From Actinomycetota bacterium (GTDB taxonomy: Bacteria > Actinomycetota > Actinomycetes > S36-B12 > CAIYMF01): a stretch of 64,000 nucleotides of DNA. Every line of letters starts with the position of its first letter. The stretch's first letter is position 1. A program made the position numbers and the translations under genes. Positions 947 to 54,126 of the stretch are shown here, piece after piece. Location: contig JAPLAU010000012.1 in the NCBI GenBank assembly GCA_026393115.1, forward strand, positions 1 to 64,000, given 5' to 3'. The notes under the pieces are model-generated. The model did not search any database, was not told the DNA's origin, and saw only the letters and a list, made by a program, of their open reading frames with translations.

Positions 947-2689
947 ATGACCGACCAGATCACCGGAGCACAGAGCCTGATCCGTTCGCTTGAGGCTGCC
1001 GGTGTCGACACCATCTTCGGAATCCCAGGTGGAGCGATTCTGCCGGCCTACGACCCGCTGATGGACTCGCGCCAGATCCGCCACATCCTCGTGCGCCACG
1101 AGCAGGCCGGCGGCCACGCCGCTGAGGGCTACGCGCTCGCTACCGGCCGCGTGGGCGTCTGTATGGCCACGTCGGGTCCGGGTGCCACCAACTTGGTCAC
1201 GCCGATTGCTGACGCGCACATGGACTCCGTTCCGATGGTTGCGATCACCGGTCAGGTTCCCAGTGCCGCCATCGGAACTGATGCATTCCAGGAAGCTGAT
1301 ATCCGTGGCATCACGATGCCCATCACCAAGCACAACTATTTGGTCACCAACGCCGACGACATACCGCGTGCCGTCGCTGAGGCGTTTCACATCGCCTCGA
1401 CCGGCCGACCCGGCCCGGTGCTGGTCGACGTGTCGAAGGACGCCCTGCAGGCGATGACCACGTTCACGTGGCCTGAGTCGATCAACCTGCCCGGCTACAA
1501 GCCCACCACGCGCCCGCACGCCAAGCAGGTGCGCGAAGCGGCGCGACTCATCCTCGATTCCAAGCGCCCCGTGTTGTACGTCGGCGGTGGCGTCATCAAG
1601 GCGGGTGCCTCGCCTGAGCTGCGCCGCCTCGCCGAACTCACCGGCATTCCGGTGGTCACCACGCTGATGGCCCGCGGCGCGTTCCCTGATAGTCACCCGC
1701 AGCACCTGGGCATGCCCGGCATGCACGGAAGTGTGGCGGCGGTCGGTGCGCTGCAGAAGAGCGACCTGCTGATTGCGCTCGGAACGCGCTTTGACGATCG
1801 GGTCACTGGCCACTTGCCGAGCTTCGCTCCCGAAGCCCTGATCATTCATGCTGACATCGATCCCGCCGAAATCTCGAAGAACCGCGCGGCTGATGTTCCG
1901 ATCGTGGGTGACGCACGCGAAGTCATTGCCGACCTCATCGCCGTGCTCGAAACCGAGCAGGCCGCCGGTCGCGTTGGCGACTACGAGTCGTGGATTGCGT
2001 TGATGGCGGGTATGAAGGCAACGTACCCGCTGGGCTACGACATTCCTGCTGACGGGTCGCTGTCTCCGCAGTACGTGATTGAGCGCTTGGGTGACATCTC
2101 CGGACCTGACTCGATCTACGCAGCGGGCGTTGGCCAGCACCAGATGTGGGCCGCGCAGTTCATCAAGTACGAGCGCCCCGGCACGTGGCTCAACTCTGGC
2201 GGTCTCGGAACGATGGGATTCGCTGTTCCGGCGGCAATGGGCGCGAAGGTAGGTGCGCCCGATCGCGTCGTATGGGCCGTCGATGGCGACGGCTGCTTCC
2301 AGATGACCAACCAGGAACTCGCCACGTGCACCATCAACGAGATTCCAATCAAGGTGGCGCTGATCAACAACTCCTCACTCGGAATGGTGCGTCAGTGGCA
2401 GACGCTGTTCTACAACGAGCGCTACTCGAACACTGACCTGCAGTCGCACAGTTTCCCCGACTTCGTAAAGCTCGCCGATGCCTACGGCTGCCACGGACTG
2501 CGTTGTGACAGCGCCGATCAGGTCGATGTCACGATTGAGAAGGCGTTGTCGCTCAACGATGCACCGGTCGTGATCGACTTCCAGGTTCACAAGGACGCCA
2601 TGGTGTGGCCGATGGTCGCCGCGGGCACCTCAAATGACGAAATCAAGATCGCTCGCGATCTTGCCCCCTCGTGGTACACGGAGGACTGA
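947..2689 (+). CDS. ilvB: Acetolactate (acetohydroxyacid) synthase, large catalytic subunit
   Basis: The 580-aa product condenses two pyruvates to acetolactate (valine/leucine) or pyruvate with 2-oxobutyrate to acetohydroxybutyrate (isoleucine), using ThDP, Mg2+ and FAD. The N-terminal ThDP domain has the catalytic glutamate in [14 protein letters not shown] (about residue 47). The central FAD region follows, and the C-terminal domain shows the ThDP motif from [11 protein letters not shown] to INNSS. Length is normal for the family. ATG 947 has an AAGGAC ribosome site and lies after the attenuator. ilvN starts 3 nt after its stop, so large and small subunits are co-translated. Confidence 0.97.
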
Positions 2690-2692
2690 CCG

Positions 2693-3217
2693 ATGGCCCG
2701 TCACACGCTGTCTGTACTCGTTGAAGACCAACCTGGTGTGCTAGCGCGCATTGCGGCACTCTTCTCGCGTCGAGGCTTCAACATTGAATCCCTTGCTGTG
2801 GGTCGCACCGAGACCGAGGGCGTGTCGCGCATGACCATCGTGGTCAACGTCGACGAGCTGCGACTCGAGCAGGTCACCAAGCAACTCAACAAGTTGATCA
2901 ACGTGCTCAAGATCGTTGAACTCGACGTTGAGAATTCGGTACAGCGCGAAATCGTGCTGATCAAGGTGCGTGCCGATGACTCGACACGTTCAAGCATCAT
3001 CGAGACCGTCGCGCTGTTCCGGGCGAAGGTCGTCGACGTGGCTCCCGATGCACTCACCATCGAGGCGACGGGTGCGGCCGACAAACTCGATGCATTGATG
3101 AGAATGCTCGAGCCGTTCGGAATCCGCGAACTCGTGCAATCGGGCATGGTCGCCGTCTCTCGCGGCGGACGTGCCATTGGCGAACGTGCCGTTCGCCCCG
3201 CCGACCGCTCGGCCTGA
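2693..3217 (+). CDS. ilvN: Acetolactate synthase, small regulatory subunit
   Basis: The 174-aa protein has an N-terminal ACT domain (MARHTLSVLVEDQPGVLARIAALFSR begins it; RGFNIESLAVG follows) and a C-terminal ALS-associated domain with the VQREIVLIKV motif. It binds IlvB, raises its activity and gives feedback inhibition by valine in known family members. It follows ilvB by 3 nt and is followed 66 nt later by ilvC in the same direction, so the three probably share one transcript controlled by the upstream attenuator. Confidence 0.97.
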   Translation: MARHTLSVLVEDQPGVLARIAALFSRRGFNIESLAVGRTETEGVSRMTIVVNVDELRLEQVTKQLNKLINVLKIVELDVENSVQREIVLIKVRADDSTRSSIIETVALFRAKVVDVAPDALTIEATGAADKLDALMRMLEPFGIRELVQSGMVAVSRGGRAIGERAVRPADRSA

Positions 3218-3283
3218 CCGAGTCGATACCCTCCATTTACTCTCAGATTCCCTTATTCCACGCAAGTCAAGGAGCGATTTCCC

Positions 3284-4312
3284 GTGGCCGACCTCTTCTA
3301 TGACAAAGATGCCGATCTGTCGATCATCCAAAACCGGGTGGTTGCTGTACTCGGATACGGATCACAGGGGCACGCTCACGCGTTGTCGCTGCGCGACTCG
3401 GGTGTCGACGTGCGCGTCGGCCTGTCGCCCGATTCCAAGAGCCGCGCCAAGGCTGAGGCCGAGGGTCTGCGTGTTGTTGACCCCGCCACGGCATCGGCTG
3501 AAGCCGACCTGATCATGGTGCTCGTGCCCGACCCTGCGCAGCGTGGTCTCTACGCAGAGGCCATCGCCCCCAACCTGCAAGAGGGCGACGCGCTGTTCTT
3601 CGCACACGGATTCAACATCCGTTACGGCTACGTCAAGCCTCCGGCAACCGTCGACGTGTGCATGGTGGCCCCCAAGGGCCCCGGTCACCTCGTGCGCCGC
3701 GAATACGCTGCGGGTCGTGGCGTTCCGGCCATCGTCGCCGTTGAGCAGGACTTCACCGGCGAGGCATGGCCATTGGCGCTCTCGTACGCCAAGGGCATTG
3801 GTTCGCTGCGTGCCGGTGGTATCCAGACCACGTTCACCGAAGAGACCGAGACCGACCTGTTCGGCGAGCAGTCAGTGCTCTGTGGTGGCGCGTCGGCGCT
3901 GATCATGGCTGGCTTCGAGACTCTCGTTGAGGCCGGCTACCAGCCCGAGGTTGCGTACTTCGAGTGCTTGCACGAACTCAAGCTCATCGTCGACCTCATG
4001 TACGAAGGTGGCATCGCCAAGCAGCGCTGGAGCGTTTCCGACACTGCCGAGTACGGCGACTACGTGTCGGGCCCCCGCGTCATTGACCAGCACGTCAAGG
4101 ACAACATGCGCGCGGTGCTCACCGACATCCAGAACGGCGCCTTCGCCAAGCGTTTCATCGACGACCAGGACGCCGGCGCCCCCGAGTTCAAGCGCCTGCG
4201 TGCCGAGGGTGAAGTTCACCCGATCGAGGTTGTGGGTCGTGAACTGCGCGGCATGATGTCGTGGGTCGACAAGCGCGATGACGATTACGTTGAGGGCACC
4301 GCTACACGCTGA
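3284..4312 (+). CDS. ilvC: Ketol-acid reductoisomerase, class I
   Basis: The 342-aa enzyme isomerises and reduces acetolactate or acetohydroxybutyrate to dihydroxy acids with NAD(P)H and Mg2+. The N-terminal Rossmann motif is GYGSQGHA (residues 24-31); the loop after the second strand has serines (SPDSKSR) as in NADPH-using enzymes. The C-terminal knotted domain contains the metal ligands in ETDLFGEQ and [17 protein letters not shown]. The short class I length fits. GTG 3284 is the start, preceded by AAGGAGCG. The next step, dihydroxyacid dehydratase (ilvD), is not in this window. Confidence 0.97.
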
Positions 4313-4333
4313 GCGAGCGCTTTTACTTCACGA

Positions 4334-4385
4334 CTGCCCGTCTGTGCACGATTGAGCACCCTGTCAATCGTGCAGAGGTGGGCAG
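4334..4385 (+). repeat. Intergenic palindromic element, copy 1
   Basis: The outer arms CTGCCCG (4334-4340) and TGGGCAG (4379-4385) enclose a perfect 10-bp inner stem, GCACGATTGA with TCAATCGTGC (4346-4355 and 4364-4373), and an 8-nt loop. A second copy with the same geometry lies at 6903-6955. It may act as the ilvC transcription terminator, although there is no T-run. Confidence 0.75.
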
Positions 4386-4428
4386 TTGCATGTCCGCTCG
4401 CAAAATCACCGTTGCGCGACAGACCCTC

Positions 4429-4442
4429 GTGAAACCTTTCAC
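4429..4442. promoter_or_regulatory. Palindrome upstream of serA, possible operator
   Basis: GTGAAA and TTTCAC are perfect inverted arms separated by CC. It lies 13 bp before a TAGGCT -10-like box (4455-4460) and 52 bp before the serA start, a suitable place for a repressor or activator. The binding protein is unknown. Confidence 0.4.
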
Positions 4443-4493
4443 AAGCGCGGTCGATAGGCTGCACACTCACCCACTGCACGGAAGGCATTCGCT

Positions 4494-6080
4494 GTGACTA
4501 AGCCGATCGTCCTCATCGCTGAGGAGCTCTCGCCCGCCACCATTGACGCTCTCGGACCCGATTTCGAGATTCGTGAGTGCGACGGAGCCGATCGTGCATC
4601 GCTCCTTCCTGCGATCGCGGAGGCCGACGCCATTCTGGTGCGGTCGGCAACGCTGGTTGACGCAGAAGCCATCGCGGCTGCTCCTCACCTCAAGGTCATC
4701 GCGCGTGCTGGAGTGGGCCTGGACAACGTCGATGTGAAGGCCGCCACCAACGCTGGCGTCATGGTCGTGAATGCGCCTACCTCGAACATCACATCGGCCG
4801 CCGAACTCGCGGTGGCGCTGCTGCTGGCCAGTGCCCGCAAGATCGCACCCGCGAGTGAATCGCTCAAGGCCGGTCAGTGGAAGCGCTCGAAGTACACCGG
4901 CGTCGAACTGTCGGAAAAGGTAGTCGGCATCGTCGGCCTGGGCCGCATTGGTCAGCTTGTCGCGCAGCGTCTTGCCGGGTTCGGCGTCACGCTCATCGCC
5001 TACGACCCCTACGTGCAGCCTGCCCGTGGCGCCCAGATGGGCATTCGCATGGTCACGCTCGATGAACTGCTTGCCGAGAGCGACTTCATCACCGTGCACC
5101 TGCCCAAGACCCCCGAAACCCTTGGCCTCATCGGCGATGCGGCCCTGCACAAGGTCAAGCCCACCGTGCACATCATCAACGCCGCGCGCGGTGGCATCGT
5201 CGACGAAGAGGCGCTGGCCAGTGCACTCACCGATGGCCGTGTCGCTGGTGCAGGTATCGACGTGTACGTCAAGGAGCCCTGCACCGACTCACCACTGTTT
5301 GCCTTCGAGCAAGTTGTCGTGACGCCGCACCTGGGCGCTTCCACTGACGAAGCACAGGAGAAGGCGGGCGTCGCGGTCGCGAAGTCGGTGCGACTGGCGC
5401 TTGCTGGTGAACTCGTTCCTGACGCTGTGAATGTGCAGGGGGGCGTGATCGACCCCGACGTGCGCCCCGGAATTCCGCTGGCGCAAGAACTCGGCGCGAT
5501 TGCTGCGGCACTCACCACTGACCCCATCGCTGCTATCGATGTTGACGTCCGAGGTTCCATTGCCGAACACGACGTCAACGTGCTCAAACTCGCCGCCCTC
5601 AAGGGTGTATTCGCCGCGGTCGTGAACGAGCCCGTGTCGTACGTCAACGCGCCCGTCCTGGCCGAACAGCGCGGCGTAACGGTCGGACTCACCACCGACC
5701 TTGAAAGTCCCGACTATCGCAACCTCACCACCGTGCGCATCACGCAGGCTCACGGATCGATCGTCACCGTCAGCGGAACGGTCAGCGGACCGCGCTTGGT
5801 GCGCAAGATCGTGTCGGTCAACGGCTACGACGTCGACGTTCCGATTGCACCGCACCTGGCGTTCTTCACGTACAACGATCGCCCGGGCATCGTGGGCAAG
5901 GTAGGTCGCCTGCTCGGTGAATCTGACATCAATATCGCGTCGATGCAGGTGGGTCGCAAGGGCGATGAGGCGCTCATCGTGTTGACGGTCGACAGCGGTA
6001 TTCCTGCAAACGTCGTGCAGTCGATCGCTGAGGCGATCGGCGCGAGTTCAGGTCGGGCTGTCGACCTCGAAATCGAGTAG
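4494..6080 (+). CDS. serA: D-3-phosphoglycerate dehydrogenase, long ACT-containing form
   Basis: The 528-aa enzyme oxidises 3-phosphoglycerate to 3-phosphohydroxypyruvate with NAD+, the first step of serine synthesis. The NAD motif is GLGRIGQLVAQRL (about residues 148-160). The catalytic set is visible: Arg in NAARGGIVDE, Glu in VKEP and His in TPHLGAS. An intervening substrate-binding (ASB) domain and a C-terminal ACT domain (FFTYNDRPGIVGKVG) give the long, serine-regulated actinobacterial type. GTG 4494 follows GGAAGG. The next gene begins 2 nt after its stop, so they are probably co-transcribed. Confidence 0.96.
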   Translation: MTKPIVLIAEELSPATIDALGPDFEIRECDGADRASLLPAIAEADAILVRSATLVDAEAIAAAPHLKVIARAGVGLDNVDVKAATNAGVMVVNAPTSNITSAAELAVALLLASARKIAPASESLKAGQWKRSKYTGVELSEKVVGIVGLGRIGQLVAQRLAGFGVTLIAYDPYVQPARGAQMGIRMVTLDELLAESDFITVHLPKTPETLGLIGDAALHKVKPTVHIINAARGGIVDEEALASALTDGRVAGAGIDVYVKEPCTDSPLFAFEQVVVTPHLGASTDEAQEKAGVAVAKSVRLALAGELVPDAVNVQGGVIDPDVRPGIPLAQELGAIAAALTTDPIAAIDVDVRGSIAEHDVNVLKLAALKGVFAAVVNEPVSYVNAPVLAEQRGVTVGLTTDLESPDYRNLTTVRITQAHGSIVTVSGTVSGPRLVRKIVSVNGYDVDVPIAPHLAFFTYNDRPGIVGKVGRLLGESDINIASMQVGRKGDEALIVLTVDSGIPANVVQSIAEAIGASSGRAVDLEIE

Positions 6081-6082
6081 TC

Positions 6083-6895
6083 ATGGCCGTCGAGTCGCGC
6101 ATGATCGACATTGGGGGAGTGGCAACCCACGTGACGCACGCCGGTGACGGTGTTGCGGTGCTGCTGCTCCACGGTTCGGGTCCCGGAGTTTCGGCGGCGG
6201 CGAACTGGCGGCTCGCGATTCCGGCACTGTCCGAGCGTTTTCGCGTGATCGCGCCCGACCAATTGGGCTTTGGTCTCACTGGTCCGCCTGCTGACGGCGT
6301 GTACTCAATGCAGGCGTGGGTGGCGCACGTGGTCGCGGTGCTTGATGAACTCGGAATTGAGCGCGCGCATGTGGTGGGCAACAGTTTCGGTGGTGCGGTG
6401 GCATTGCACCTGGCTGTGCATCACCCCGAGCGTGTCAATCGCCTGGCGTTGATGGGTGCGGTCGGATTGTCGTTTCCCATTTCTGACGGCCTTGACGCTG
6501 TGTGGGGTTATGAGCCATCAGTGGCCGAGATGCGTCGGCTGCTCGAGATCTTCACCTACGAACCCTCGCCGCAGATCGACGAGCTCGCGGTGTTGCGCTA
6601 CGAGGCGAGCATCGTGCCGGGAGTGCAAGAGCAGTTTTCCGCGATGTTCCCCGCTCCTCGTCAGCGCTGGGTCGACGCGATGGCGCTTCCGGAAGATCGA
6701 GTGGCCGCGATCGAACACGAAACGCTCATCCTGCACGGCCGAGAAGACCGCGTGATTCCGCTCGACGTATCGCTTCGGTTGCACCACTTGATTCCACGCT
6801 CGCAACTGCACGTGTTCGGTCAGTGTGGGCACTGGACCCAGGTTGAGCACCCCGATCGCTTCCACCGACTCGTGGGTGACTTCTTCGCTGAGTAA
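6083..6895 (+). CDS. Alpha/beta hydrolase, meta-cleavage-product hydrolase-like
   Basis: The 270-aa protein has the oxyanion motif HGSGPGVSAAANW (about residues 30-42), typical of the XylF/DmpD/BphD/MhpC group that cleaves C-C bonds in ring-fission products. The nucleophile elbow is GNSFGG (about residue 101), an acid is likely in GREDRVIP, and the histidine is in QCGHWTQVEHP. Its start is 2 nt after serA, which is an odd partner; no other aromatic-degradation genes are adjacent. The family also contains hydrolases with other substrates, so the reaction is uncertain. Confidence 0.8.
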   Translation: MAVESRMIDIGGVATHVTHAGDGVAVLLLHGSGPGVSAAANWRLAIPALSERFRVIAPDQLGFGLTGPPADGVYSMQAWVAHVVAVLDELGIERAHVVGNSFGGAVALHLAVHHPERVNRLALMGAVGLSFPISDGLDAVWGYEPSVAEMRRLLEIFTYEPSPQIDELAVLRYEASIVPGVQEQFSAMFPAPRQRWVDAMALPEDRVAAIEHETLILHGREDRVIPLDVSLRLHHLIPRSQLHVFGQCGHWTQVEHPDRFHRLVGDFFAE

Positions 6896-6902
6896 TGCAC
6901 GA

Positions 6903-6955
6903 CTGCCCGCCTATTGCATGAGTGACGTGGTGCTCACTCATGCACAGACGGGCAG
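6903..6955 (+). repeat. Intergenic palindromic element, copy 2
   Basis: Outer arms CTGCCCG (6903-6909) and CGGGCAG (6949-6955) and a perfect 10-bp inner stem, GCATGAGTGA with TCACTCATGC (6916-6925 and 6934-6943), with an 8-nt loop. The inner stem differs from copy 1 at paired positions so that pairing is kept. It lies between the convergent hydrolase and leuA and could terminate both. Confidence 0.75.
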
Positions 6956-6972
6956 TGCGGGTAGTCGTGTGC

Positions 6973-8721
<1,749 letters not shown>

Positions 8722-8760
8722 CTAGATGAGGGGGTCGGTTCGACCAGCGCGCACAACTCA

Positions 8761-8798
8761 CCGCAGCGGGGAGGCCGGTCTTTCAGGCCCCGCTGCGG
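8761..8798 (-). promoter_or_regulatory. leuA leader hairpin (LEU-type attenuation element)
   Basis: A perfect 11-bp stem (CCGCAGCGGGG with CCCCGCTGCGG) overlaps the last five sense codons and the stop of the leader peptide and lies 49 nt before the leuA start. There is no T-run after it, so control may act on translation of leuA or through alternative pairing rather than by simple termination. LEU elements with short Leu-rich peptides before leuA have been described in Actinobacteria. Confidence 0.75.
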
Positions 8799-8827
8799 CA
8801 GCGAAGAAGCAAGCGCGCGAACGACAT
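8783..8827 (-). CDS. Leader peptide of leuA (Leu-Leu-Leu)
   Basis: The 14-codon frame MSFARLLLRCRSGA has three consecutive leucine codons, followed by Arg-Cys-Arg, and overlaps the left arm of the leuA leader hairpin. Ribosome stalling at the Leu codons would leave the hairpin free to form or refold. The ATG lies 6 nt after a TACCCT box on the minus strand, so the transcript is probably leaderless at this peptide. The match of Leu codons with the first gene of leucine synthesis makes chance very unlikely. Confidence 0.87.
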   Translation of the reverse strand: MSFARLLLRCRSGA

Positions 8828-8832
8828 GGATA

Positions 8833-8838
8833 CAGGGT
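8833..8838 (-). promoter_or_regulatory. -10 box of the leuA leader transcript
   Basis: TACCCT on the minus strand, 6 nt before the leader-peptide ATG, the same spacing as other leaderless starts in this window. Confidence 0.5.
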
Positions 8839-8920
8839 AGCACCGGGAGTTGTCGGGTAACGCCGACCGCGCTGCCGCGGGGGTTTAGCTCCGGAAGTGG
8901 ACGTCTCACCGGGGCATCTC

Positions 8921-8965
8921 TTGACCAAAGAAGCCCCAGACGGGCACCGATTGACCGAAGAAGCC
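8921..8965 (+). repeat. Two 15-bp direct repeats 30 bp apart between leuA and leuB
   Basis: TTGACCAAAGAAGCC (8921-8935) and TTGACCGAAGAAGCC (8951-8965) differ at one base and start exactly 30 bp apart, close to three helical turns. They lie in the divergent leuA/leuB control region (8828-9041), which otherwise holds only the two promoters. They could be binding sites of a transcription factor. Confidence 0.6.
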
Positions 8966-9028
8966 GGGTTTGGGCCCAGTGAGCGACGGCAGCGGGCGAC
9001 CTTGATGCTGACGTCAAAATCGGCCCCC

Positions 9029-9034
9029 TAGGCT
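9029..9034 (+). promoter_or_regulatory. -10 box of leuB
   Basis: TAGGCT lies 7 nt before the leuB ATG, and no ribosome site precedes the start, so leuB is probably translated from a leaderless mRNA. Confidence 0.5.
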
Positions 9035-9041
9035 TACCGCC

Positions 9042-10088
9042 ATGGCTACCAACTACCGCATTGCTGTTATCGCCGGCGACGGCATCGGAACCGAGGTCGT
9101 CGATGAGGGCCTCAAAGTGCTGCGCGCAGCAGGTACTCCCGCGGGTCTGACGTTTGAGACCACCGAGTACGACCTGGGCTCCCGGCGCTACAACGCCACG
9201 GGCGAGACCCTGCCTCCGGCAGTGCTTGAGGAATTGCGAGGACACGATGCGATTCTGCTCGGTGCCATTGGTGACCCCAGCGTTCCGCCTGGTGTGCTTG
9301 AGCGTGGACTACTGCTCGCGCTGCGCTTCGCACTTGACCACCATGTGAACCTGCGCCCGGTGAAGTTGTACCCAGGTGTGATCTCTCCGCTGGCGGGCAA
9401 GGGGCCGGCCGACATCGACATGGTGGTGTGTCGCGAGGGCACCGAAGGTCCGTACGCGGGCGCGGGTGGTTCGCTGCGTAAGGGCACACCGCATGAGGTG
9501 GCCATCGAAGACAGTCTCAACACCCGCTTCGGGGTCGAGCGCATCGTGCGCGATGCGTTTGCGCGTGCCGAGCGTCGGCCGCGCAAGAAGGTGACCCTCG
9601 TGCACAAGACCAATGTGATCGTCAACGCGGGTGATCTCTGGCAGCGCACCTTCAACGAGGTGGCTGCCGAGCACCCTGGCATCGCTACCGACTACCTTCA
9701 CGTCGATGCCGCGGCAATGTTCTTTATCACCAACCCCGAGCGTTTCGACGTGGTCGTCACCGACAACCTGTTCGGCGACATCATCACCGACATCGGCGCG
9801 GCGATCGCCGGCGGAATTGGGCTTGCCGCGAGTGGCAACCTCGACCCCAGTCGCGCGAACCCCAGCATGTTCGAGCCGGTGCACGGTTCGGCGCCCGACA
9901 TCGCCGGACAAGGTAAGGCCAATCCCACCGCCACGGTGCTCAGCGTCGCGATGATGCTCGATCACCTCGGTGAGCCAGAGGTTGCAGCGACGGTTGAGGC
10001 GGCGGTGTCGGCCGACCTCGCCAGCCGCAGTGGCGTACGCAGCACCACTGAGATTGGTGATGCATTGGCCGCTGCAGTTGCAGGCTAA
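9042..10088 (+). CDS. leuB: 3-isopropylmalate dehydrogenase
   Basis: The 348-aa NAD-dependent oxidative decarboxylase starts [16 protein letters not shown]. Substrate arginines and catalytic residues of the isocitrate/isopropylmalate dehydrogenase family are present, with the metal site in [17 protein letters not shown] and NAD loop [14 protein letters not shown] (about residues 285-298). It acts in leucine synthesis and, with LeuCD, can convert citramalate derivatives to 2-oxobutyrate for isoleucine. ilvE follows 30 nt later, so the two are likely co-transcribed. Confidence 0.96.
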
Positions 10089-52277: not shown

Positions 52278-52451
52278 ATGCCACCTCTCATTTCAGCCGC
52301 TCTCGACAATCCTGCCACCTACTTCTCTTGGGGTTGGTTGCAGATTTCGGTCGGCAATTTGATTGTGATTCTGGTGATGTTCGTACTTTTCATTCTCGCG
52401 CTGGTGTTGCCCTTCCCGGGCGGACACGACGATGGGGGTGATGGCTCATGA
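52278..52451 (+). CDS. 57-aa single-helix membrane protein of a cytochrome b operon
   Basis: The frame from ATG 52278 (AGGGAGG before it) begins MPPLISAALDNPATYFSWGW and has one strong membrane helix (ISVGNLIVILVMFVLFILAL, residues 23-42) and an acidic tail (GGHDDGGDG). Its stop overlaps the cytochrome b start by 4 bp, so it is surely co-translated. It may be a small subunit or assembly factor of the complex. The upstream gap 52158-52277 contains short inverted repeats (CGGCCA with TGGCCG) but no clear promoter. Confidence 0.8.
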   Translation: MPPLISAALDNPATYFSWGWLQISVGNLIVILVMFVLFILALVLPFPGGHDDGGDGS

Positions 52452-53128
52452 CCGCGGAGGTCGAGTCGCACACCGTCGCACCGGCACCCGGAGATACATG
52501 GACGGGCAAATTGCGCGACCGCGTCGTTCGAGAGTTGCCCCCGGACAAGCTTCTGCCAGATCGCCAACCGTCGTACGTCGGTTCCTGGATCTACGTCTTT
52601 GGTGTCTTGACGATCGCCGCACTCCTGGTCGTCGTCGCCACTGGAGTAGTGCTCACGCTCGAAGGACCTGAGTGGTATCACATCTCCGACGTAGGCCACT
52701 TCTTCAACAGTCTGCACTTCTGGTCGGTGCAGCTGTTCTTCATTTTCATGGTCGTACACCTCTGGGGGAAGTTCTGGATGGCCGCGTGGCGCGGTCGCCG
52801 AGCGATGACGTGGATTACCGGCGTCGTTTCCTTCATCGTGTCACTTGCCACAGCATTCACCGGCTACCTCATGCAGACGAACGCTGATTCGCAGTGGATC
52901 ACCTTCGAGGCCAAGGACGGCCTCAACGCGGTGGGAATCGGTGCGTGGTTCAACGTGACGAGTCTCGGACAAACCATGCTGCTGCACGTGTGCACGTTGC
53001 CACTAGTGGTCGGCCTCATCGTGGTGCTTCACGTGCTGTTGGTGCGTAAGCGTGGAGTGGTGCCTCCGATCGATGCCTTCAAGAACGAACCCGCCGCTGC
53101 GAGCGACACAGCGGAGGTGGCGTCATGA
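52448..53128 (+). CDS. Split cytochrome b, b6-type diheme subunit
   Basis: The 226-aa protein has four hydrophobic segments and two heme-ligand histidine pairs: SLHFWS with VVHLWG (13 residues between) and LLHVCT with VLHVLL (14 between, the b6 spacing). It thus resembles cytochrome b6 and not the fused actinobacterial QcrB of about 540 aa. A PEWY sequence occurs in the first loop (EGPEWYHISD) rather than in the usual quinol-site loop of the C-terminal part. It likely passes electrons from quinol across the membrane; the partner is unknown. Start overlaps the upstream small gene. Confidence 0.88.
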   Translation: MTAEVESHTVAPAPGDTWTGKLRDRVVRELPPDKLLPDRQPSYVGSWIYVFGVLTIAALLVVVATGVVLTLEGPEWYHISDVGHFFNSLHFWSVQLFFIFMVVHLWGKFWMAAWRGRRAMTWITGVVSFIVSLATAFTGYLMQTNADSQWITFEAKDGLNAVGIGAWFNVTSLGQTMLLHVCTLPLVVGLIVVLHVLLVRKRGVVPPIDAFKNEPAAASDTAEVAS

Positions 53129-54126
53129 GTAAGACGAAGAAAGTCGATCCCGCCGCTGCACCGTGGCAAGGTCCTTGGCGCAAGTACGACATCTTGAAGG
53201 AAGGTGTCATCGCGCTTATCGTCGTGGCACTGCTATCGGTTGGTTTGGCAGGCGTCTTCAGCTCACCGGATGAAAAGGCGCTGACCTTCCAAGGGTGGGC
53301 GACCAGCGCACCGGACAACTTCTTCGCCACCACTGTCGGTGAACTCGCCGGAACCACGGAATCGGCGGGCTACGGACCTCCGTACAACGAAGGCGGCGAT
53401 GGGGTCTCTGTCGGACCACTGAATATGCAGAAGCTGATGGGTGTTCGTAACCCTGTGAACCCGGCCGATGATTTCGTGATCACTCCGCTGTCTTCCTCGC
53501 AGCAATCGCAGGAAACGGTGGATGCGCTCAAGGCGTGGAAGGATGCATCTGCCGACCAGCAGGCGGCGTGGGCGACAGCCTTCGACGATGCTGTGCAGGC
53601 GACTGCTGATGAAGAGGGCGTGCTTGACCTCACCAAGGTTGAGGAGGGGGACTACGGCCCCGTTCCGGTGCTGGCCAAAGCACTGACTGACATGGCCACC
53701 TCTGGTGCCTACGACGGCGTTCTGCTGGCGCAGGATCCCAATGGTTTTTACCAGATGGATCACACCAAGCAGATCCTGTTCATGGGCGATGGCTCGTACC
53801 TCGATGACTTCGGCACCGTTCAGAACCTTCAGGGCAACACCTGGGGAATGATGAATGAAACCGGGAGTTACCCGGGTCAGGCATGGCTATGGCTCTACTC
53901 CTTCTGGTACCAACTGCCAGTGTTCAACGCCCCCGATGACGCAGATCCGGCGTCAATGACCGCGCAACTGTCGGGAAGTGCTGACGCCCTGATCTTCTAC
54001 ATCATGGGGCTGCTCACGATTCTGTTGGTGCTGCTGCCATTCATTCCGGGAGTGCGTTCAATTCCGAAGTGGATTCCGCTGCACAAGTTGATCTGGCGTG
54101 ACTATTACCGCAGCATCCGGGGGTAG
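53125..54126 (+). CDS. Two-helix protein with large extracytoplasmic domain, cytochrome b partner
   Basis: The 333-aa protein has a short cytoplasmic N-terminus, helix 1 (KEGVIALIVVALLSVGLAGVF, about residues 26-46), some 230 outside residues, helix 2 (ALIFYIMGLLTILLVLLPFI, about 284-303) and a basic tail (KWIPLHKLIWRDYYRS). By position it stands where subunit IV follows b6, and the ends resemble cytochrome b helices, but PEWY and a third helix are absent. No heme c (CxxCH) or Rieske motifs were seen. It overlaps the cytochrome b stop by 4 bp. Confidence 0.8.
   Translation: MSKTKKVDPAAAPWQGPWRKYDILKEGVIALIVVALLSVGLAGVFSSPDEKALTFQGWATSAPDNFFATTVGELAGTTESAGYGPPYNEGGDGVSVGPLNMQKLMGVRNPVNPADDFVITPLSSSQQSQETVDALKAWKDASADQQAAWATAFDDAVQATADEEGVLDLTKVEEGDYGPVPVLAKALTDMATSGAYDGVLLAQDPNGFYQMDHTKQILFMGDGSYLDDFGTVQNLQGNTWGMMNETGSYPGQAWLWLYSFWYQLPVFNAPDDADPASMTAQLSGSADALIFYIMGLLTILLVLLPFIPGVRSIPKWIPLHKLIWRDYYRSIRG

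Follow-up and report, generated by a model that had tools for sequence, protein, structure and literature searches.

Cytochrome b6-type cores are usually thought of as parts of Rieske/bc complexes. The described systems closest to the locus reported here are cytochrome b6 (PetB) and the N-terminal half of QcrB, the latter belonging, in actinobacteria, to the QcrCAB-aa3 supercomplex. A b6-like protein in a non-bc setting is represented by ExtP (NF040969), the b-type cytochrome of selenite/tellurite reduction operons, whilst CybB superoxide oxidase and cytochrome b561, comparable in working only, are small diheme b proteins that could link the p-side of the membrane to the quinone pool. We analysed a window of 64,000 nucleotides from an Actinomycetota bacterium (assembly GCA_026393115.1, contig JAPLAU010000012.1), in which three adjacent genes, here termed P1, P2 and P3, encode a b6-like protein and two membrane partners.

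The b6-like protein, P2, has in common with PetB and the QcrB N-terminal half its four helices, histidine spacings of 14 and 15 residues, and matches to both profiles and PDB entries. It differs from them in forming a separate deep clade, in having neither a Rieske protein nor cytochrome f/c1/cc, and in having as its partner P3, which carries an uncharacterised outside domain of 240 residues; neither a subunit IV nor a Qo motif was found. The QcrCAB-aa3 supercomplex occurs in the same genome and likewise contains a diheme b core, but its QcrB is fused and has a Rieske partner, P1-P2-P3 being additional to it. ExtP was the best NCBIfam match of P2, yet at 55.6 bits P2 lies far under the 290-bit cut-off of that family, and no such operon context is present at P1-P2-P3. 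CybB and b561 are of a different family (PF01292 on P2: E = 0.011, 15.9 bits against a cut-off of 30.1) and come without P1 or P3. With respect to Alternative complex III, there is no CxxCH motif, and the membrane part of P1-P2-P3 is b6-like rather than NrfD-like. The core of the set is of a known cytochrome b family, whilst the whole complex lacks the Rieske protein, cytochrome c and Qo motif that define bc complexes. No description of the P1-P2-P3 set was found in the open literature searched, and an earlier description is possible.

The trio (52278-54126) sits on contig C20 of a 3.5-Mb genome (G000). Open reading frame calls agreed with the first-pass annotation of the window, which had described overlapping genes for a 57-aa helix protein, a b6-type diheme cytochrome b and a two-helix protein (Table 1). 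The P1/P2 and P2/P3 gene pairs each share 4 bp (ATGA), and a GGAGG ribosome-binding sequence is found at P1. Judged from their sequences, the flanking genes appear to be housekeeping genes, with smc and ftsY before the trio and amtB, glnK, glnD and ffh after it; ftsY, the only flank gene tested, was tested via the copy in a sister genome and matched SRP54. Flanking genes vary among the P1-P2-P3 loci of relatives, and a plasmid collection yielded no match.

Table 1. Coordinates within the window and predicted architecture of the three genes.
Gene	Coordinates	Strand	Product and predicted features
P1	52278..52451	+	57 aa, one helix; N-out, C-in topology inferred from natural fusions to the P2 N-terminus
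P2	52448..53128	+	226 aa, four-helix diheme cytochrome b6-like protein; predicted heme ligands H90/H104 and H180/H195
P3	53125..54126	+	333 aa; TM 27-45, all-helical extracytoplasmic domain ~46-288, TM 289-307, basic cytoplasmic tail

Searches with P2 returned the Pfam families PF13631 (1.2e-13) and PF00033 (2.9e-9), chloroplast cytochrome b6 amongst PDB sequences (1.3e-11), and a 97% probability against QcrB in hhalign. Its two histidine pairs have the b6-type spacing of 14 and 15, and all four of these residues are invariant (84/84 sequences) and also present in 26 fusions, including divergent Saccharibacteria forms at 27-36% identity. Two b hemes are predicted in P2. Most of the other residues that persist in the divergent fusions belong to the p-side loops (W76, Q149, D157, N160 and Q175); on the n-side R118 and W122 are retained, as are prolines close to the last helix. 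In P1, residues N27, F38, A41 and P45-F46-P47 are each conserved in at least 95% of about 75 relatives. The tetrapeptide PEWY had been pointed out in the first loop of the b6-like protein, and it does sit there, in the AB loop; as a conserved motif it did not hold, since only two of 84 sequences have it, the column mostly reading PAWY, PAWW, PTWW or PSWY. Its reading as a functional quinol/Qo motif was hence rejected and the match regarded as coincidence. The conserved residues around this site are instead W76 (84/84) and H78 (82/84).

The outside stretch of P3, put at ~230 residues in the first-pass annotation and at about 240 here, is acidic (34 D/E against 8 K/R) and lies between basic ends; it was placed outside because this distribution of charge follows the positive-inside rule. 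Residues Y83, P86, Y87, D222, G241, E245, P250, G251, W254 and D287 are kept even in divergent forms. There is no conserved cysteine in P3, and none at all in that of the window, whilst CxxCH occurs in 0 of 90 P3 sequences; with no Rieske or cytochrome c gene in the operon, the absence of all three noted at the outset was borne out. Outside the membrane, no histidine is conserved in most members except at position 234 (65/90). P3 hence has no evident metal or heme site and, for want of conserved redox-cofactor ligands, is unlikely to perform the electron transfer of a Rieske protein or cytochrome c1. An earlier proposal that the domain stands in place of Rieske/c1 thus fits in topological terms, but not as regards that electron-transfer role.

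The AlphaFold model of P3 is confident and almost wholly helical (mean pLDDT 84). When the whole model was compared with the PDB, no match was found (Foldseek best E 3.4; VIA-align best Z 3.5), nor was any relative found amongst PDB sequences; matches to purple acid phosphatase, over 44 residues with E about 0.013, were regarded as fortuitous. Scans of 71 members against Pfam and NCBIfam gave no family except stray weak matches, amongst them NF041076 (SoxC cytochrome b), weakly matched by 2 of the 71 (best 7e-4) and absent in ten re-scanned members. The third protein had been called subunit IV-like, a description that found no support in hhalign, where the probability against QcrB was 0.5%. 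It had also been observed that PEWY is missing from this protein, and a search for P[EDPTV]W[YFT] found only a single PVWT (1/90). No clear homology to a known subunit thus emerged from the Pfam, NCBIfam, PDB sequence or fold searches, and on its sequence and model the outside domain appears to be uncharacterised, without a known homologue found.

Nearly all of about 95 loci have the genes in the order P1-P2-P3, adjacent ones mostly overlapping by 4 bp, and the arrangement is far above chance. There were several instances of fusion between neighbouring genes. All three are encoded as a single ORF in L084, in six of 40 loci of the family f60 (L158, L162-L166) and in 12 loci of the Saccharibacteria class (L174-L185), whilst P1-P2 fusions were found in L107 and four f60 loci (L145, L155, L160 and L161) and a P2-P3 fusion in L108. 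In eight more Saccharibacteria-class genomes (L186-L193) the P2-P3 fusion is divergent, about 460-515 aa long and devoid of a recognisable P1; its P2 part is 27-36% identical, the four heme histidines and P3 E245 are kept, and it may represent a second subfamily. Mirror-tree comparison of P2 and P3 distances gave r = 0.77 (permutation maximum 0.17), a correlation that co-inheritance alone would also produce. The synteny and the single-ORF fusions in f60 and Saccharibacteria indicate that the three proteins form one unit, in keeping with the distinct, dedicated three-subunit module suggested by the first-pass annotation. The model of a natural fusion is moderate (pLDDT 69, pTM 0.59), so a geometry with P3 over the p-side heme is tentative, and a structure search with it gave weak cytochrome b matches only (E 0.07). 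One genome (G153) harboured two P2-P3 copies (L119 and L120) and no COX1, with P1 undetected there by BLAST.

A search of the genome for canonical qcr genes located them on contig C28, where a fused QcrB (571 aa), as anticipated for actinobacteria, lies with the Rieske gene qcrA upstream and an aa3 COX1. P1-P2-P3 is therefore an additional complex and not the sole bc complex of this organism. Of the 31 carrier genomes examined, 28 likewise have a QcrB-like cytochrome b; of the others, G146 and G153 lack COX1 and encode a different type of Rieske/cytochrome b, and in a small Saccharibacteria bin (G455) no canonical cytochrome b was found. Neither the operon nor the fusions contain a Rieske gene, and none recurs amongst the neighbouring genes, that of the window's genome being with QcrB on C28. 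These findings bear on the idea that P2 is an alternative cytochrome b for a conventional Rieske/bc complex, borrowing QcrA and QcrC encoded elsewhere. Such borrowing would be compatible with P2 being a true cytochrome b relative and with the QcrA on C28, but the expected place has no Qo motif, no clear homologous C-terminal half was found, an extra outside domain is present, the genome's own QcrB is still there, and a canonical cytochrome b was not found in the Saccharibacteria bin; we regard it as very improbable.

P3 was found in 16 of 60 relatives and, in a phylum-wide sample of 396 genomes, in 11, most actinobacteria being without it. In a genome collection it was retrieved from 445 stretches, including those of Streptomyces, Kitasatospora, Amycolatopsis, Cryobacterium, Cellulomonas and Actinotalea. 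It is nearly universal in family f60, which includes records titled Acidimicrobiaceae (128/150 genomes), and in the Saccharibacteria class, to which G455 and its locus L084 belong, roughly a tenth of the sampled genomes have it (28/295).

The phylogeny of the b6-like parts, proposed earlier as a check on this subunit, set P2 and the Saccharibacteria triple fusions apart from the canonical cytochromes b, QcrB and b6 included (100/99). Saccharibacteria and f60 fusions grouped together (96/100, 95/82); as far as the tree can be read, this suggests that an already fused gene was passed between the two groups. As the bootstrap was not fully settled and long branches meet, the deeper placements, that of the divergent fusions amongst them, are uncertain. 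A further short protein resembling cytochrome b, of 376-386 aa, was observed in Actinotalea lenta (L196:2056-3183) and Streptomyces actuosus (L197:2511-3668); it lies near a heavy-metal P-type ATPase, forms a separate clade in the tree (100/99), and no Rieske gene was recognised beside it.

In actinobacterial neighbourhoods no recurrent dedicated partner genes were identified, and most actinobacterial copies, including that of the window, adjoin no respiratory gene. In three Saccharibacteria-class genomes (L182, L183 and L184, the last with the fusion at 7597-9375), however, the fusion lies 1.1-3.0 kb from cyo operons encoding a cytochrome bo3 quinol oxidase. Subunit II of the L184 operon is of the quinol type (COX_ARM) and shows no CuA ligands; between the fusion and cyoABCDE lies a polyprenyl synthase gene. 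In L084, near a contig end, the fusion adjoins a polyprenyl synthase gene followed by cyoE (heme O synthase). In both L182 and L183 the interval between the fusion and the cyo operon holds genes for a secreted protein and for a pair of two-component regulators, in identical order, hinting at co-regulation of fusion and operon. Members of an f60 clade (L136, L137, L138, L140-L142 and L157) have P1-P2-P3 beside ctaA and/or ctaB, often with genes for a TlpA-like thioredoxin or ABC proteins, and ctaA and ctaB are also near the trio in L059. The cyo, cyoE and ctaA/ctaB neighbours point to the quinone/oxidase part of aerobic respiration, whilst most actinobacterial copies are unlinked.

The same neighbourhoods could be read as those of a complex that takes part in heme A/O and heme-copper oxidase biogenesis, either in assembly or as a redox partner, for instance an electron partner of heme A synthase, CtaA. 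The f60 operons adjoining ctaA, ctaB, TlpA-like thioredoxin and ABC genes, and the ctaA/ctaB, cyoE and cyoABCDE genes near L059, L084 and L184, respectively, would suit such a function. Most carriers show no such linkage, however, P3 occurs in so few genomes across the phylum, and the set is carried by G146 and G153 without COX1, and we therefore consider this quite improbable. These two carriers also indicate that a heme-copper oxidase is not obligatory for P1-P2-P3.

A second, CuA-type heme-copper oxidase is encoded on contig C9 of the window's genome, together with a membrane cupredoxin and CtaG. The cluster (L116, positions 30000-42000 of C9) encodes, at 1739-9438, CuA subunit II, CtaG, a CopD-like protein and a membrane cupredoxin-like protein, the last of which has a conserved C-x3-C (WxCE[FY]PCG) and no second CuA-type histidine; no cytochrome c gene was recognised beside it. 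This cluster raises the alternative that P1-P2-P3 is a quinol oxidase whose b hemes relay electrons from quinol to the CuA-type oxidase by way of its membrane cupredoxin, in effect a complex III replacement free of Rieske protein and cytochrome c. Across the phylum, the cupredoxin was found in 8 of the 11 genomes with P3 but in just 6 of the 385 without P3 (Fisher 3e-11), and amongst order-level relatives in 9 of 16 carriers against 8 of 44 others (p = 0.008). Within family f60 the association nonetheless vanishes (104 of 128 genomes with P3 and 18 of 22 without; p = 1), hence the link was dropped and treated as shared ancestry or ecology. The CuA oxidase with cupredoxin is, moreover, missing from many P3 carriers, and membrane cupredoxins and TlpA have been described as COX-related partners in iron oxidisers (PMC8239418). 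Such a quinol oxidase seems rather unlikely.

The reading that we prefer, at slightly under even chances, is that P1-P2-P3 is a Rieske-free, non-bifurcating quinone oxidoreductase, in which a p-side site roofed by P3 exchanges electrons with the quinone pool of aerobic chains. The three proteins would form a standing membrane complex of seven helices (1+4+2) around a cytochrome b6-type diheme core, in which two bis-His b hemes would carry electrons across the membrane between the p-side site and the quinone pool. The AB and CD loops of P2 would form this site, with the P3 domain as its roof, and the complex would be attached to aerobic chains upstream of heme-copper oxidases. As P1-P2-P3 has no Rieske protein or cytochrome c, no Rieske-type bifurcating Q-cycle would be possible. 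Since the neighbour in Saccharibacteria is a quinol oxidase, electron flow from a p-side donor into the pool seems more likely than outflow. We infer the quinol-oxidising or quinone-reducing role envisaged by the first-pass annotation, as well as heme occupancy, quinone binding, the p-side catalytic site, the direction and the substrate.

Counted in favour of a quinone oxidoreductase were the synteny, the fusions, the mirror-tree correlation, the invariant heme histidines, the outside position of P3, the co-presence of QcrB and the cyo/cta neighbours, as well as widely kept polar residues on the p-side (P2 Q149, D157, N160 and Q175; P3 D222, E245 and D287). Counted against it were that most actinobacterial copies are unlinked to respiratory genes, that the carriers G146 and G153 have no COX1, that the fusion model is moderate, and that, for as long as no p-side substrate can be named, a transmembrane quinone-quinone reaction would perform no net work. 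An alternative is that the complex is a p-side small-molecule:quinone oxidoreductase, such as a CybB-like superoxide:quinone oxidoreductase, which would supply the oxidase by loading the quinone pool with electrons taken from superoxide or some other diffusible reductant. Its diheme four-helix core with strongly conserved p-side loops, the association with aerobic chains in some lineages and an outside domain that, having no evident cofactors, could form a substrate funnel are consistent with this, but P2 is in the b6 family and not that of b561, and in the superoxide version the acidic outside domain of P3 would repel the substrate; we hold it to be unlikely.

It is possible, though doubtful, that P1-P2-P3 constitutes a separate class of respiratory complex, namely a b6-type quinone oxidoreductase free of Rieske protein and cytochrome c and with its own extracytoplasmic domain. 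This class would have originated in Actinomycetota, some of which came to encode it as one chain, and would later have reached Saccharibacteria by transfer; there, the 590-residue chain and cytochrome bo3 would operate in a minimal pmf-making chain without a canonical complex III. Generation of pmf by yet undescribed protein systems has been suggested for Saccharibacteria (PMC9166423). With a single-chain form encoded beside a quinol oxidase, the question can be put to a direct test through expression of one gene. More broadly, a large conserved group of proteins keeps the diheme b6 core, with the rest replaced by one uncharacterised domain, alongside normal respiration, and P1-P2-P3 is probably an unrecognised route of electrons to or from the membrane quinone pool.
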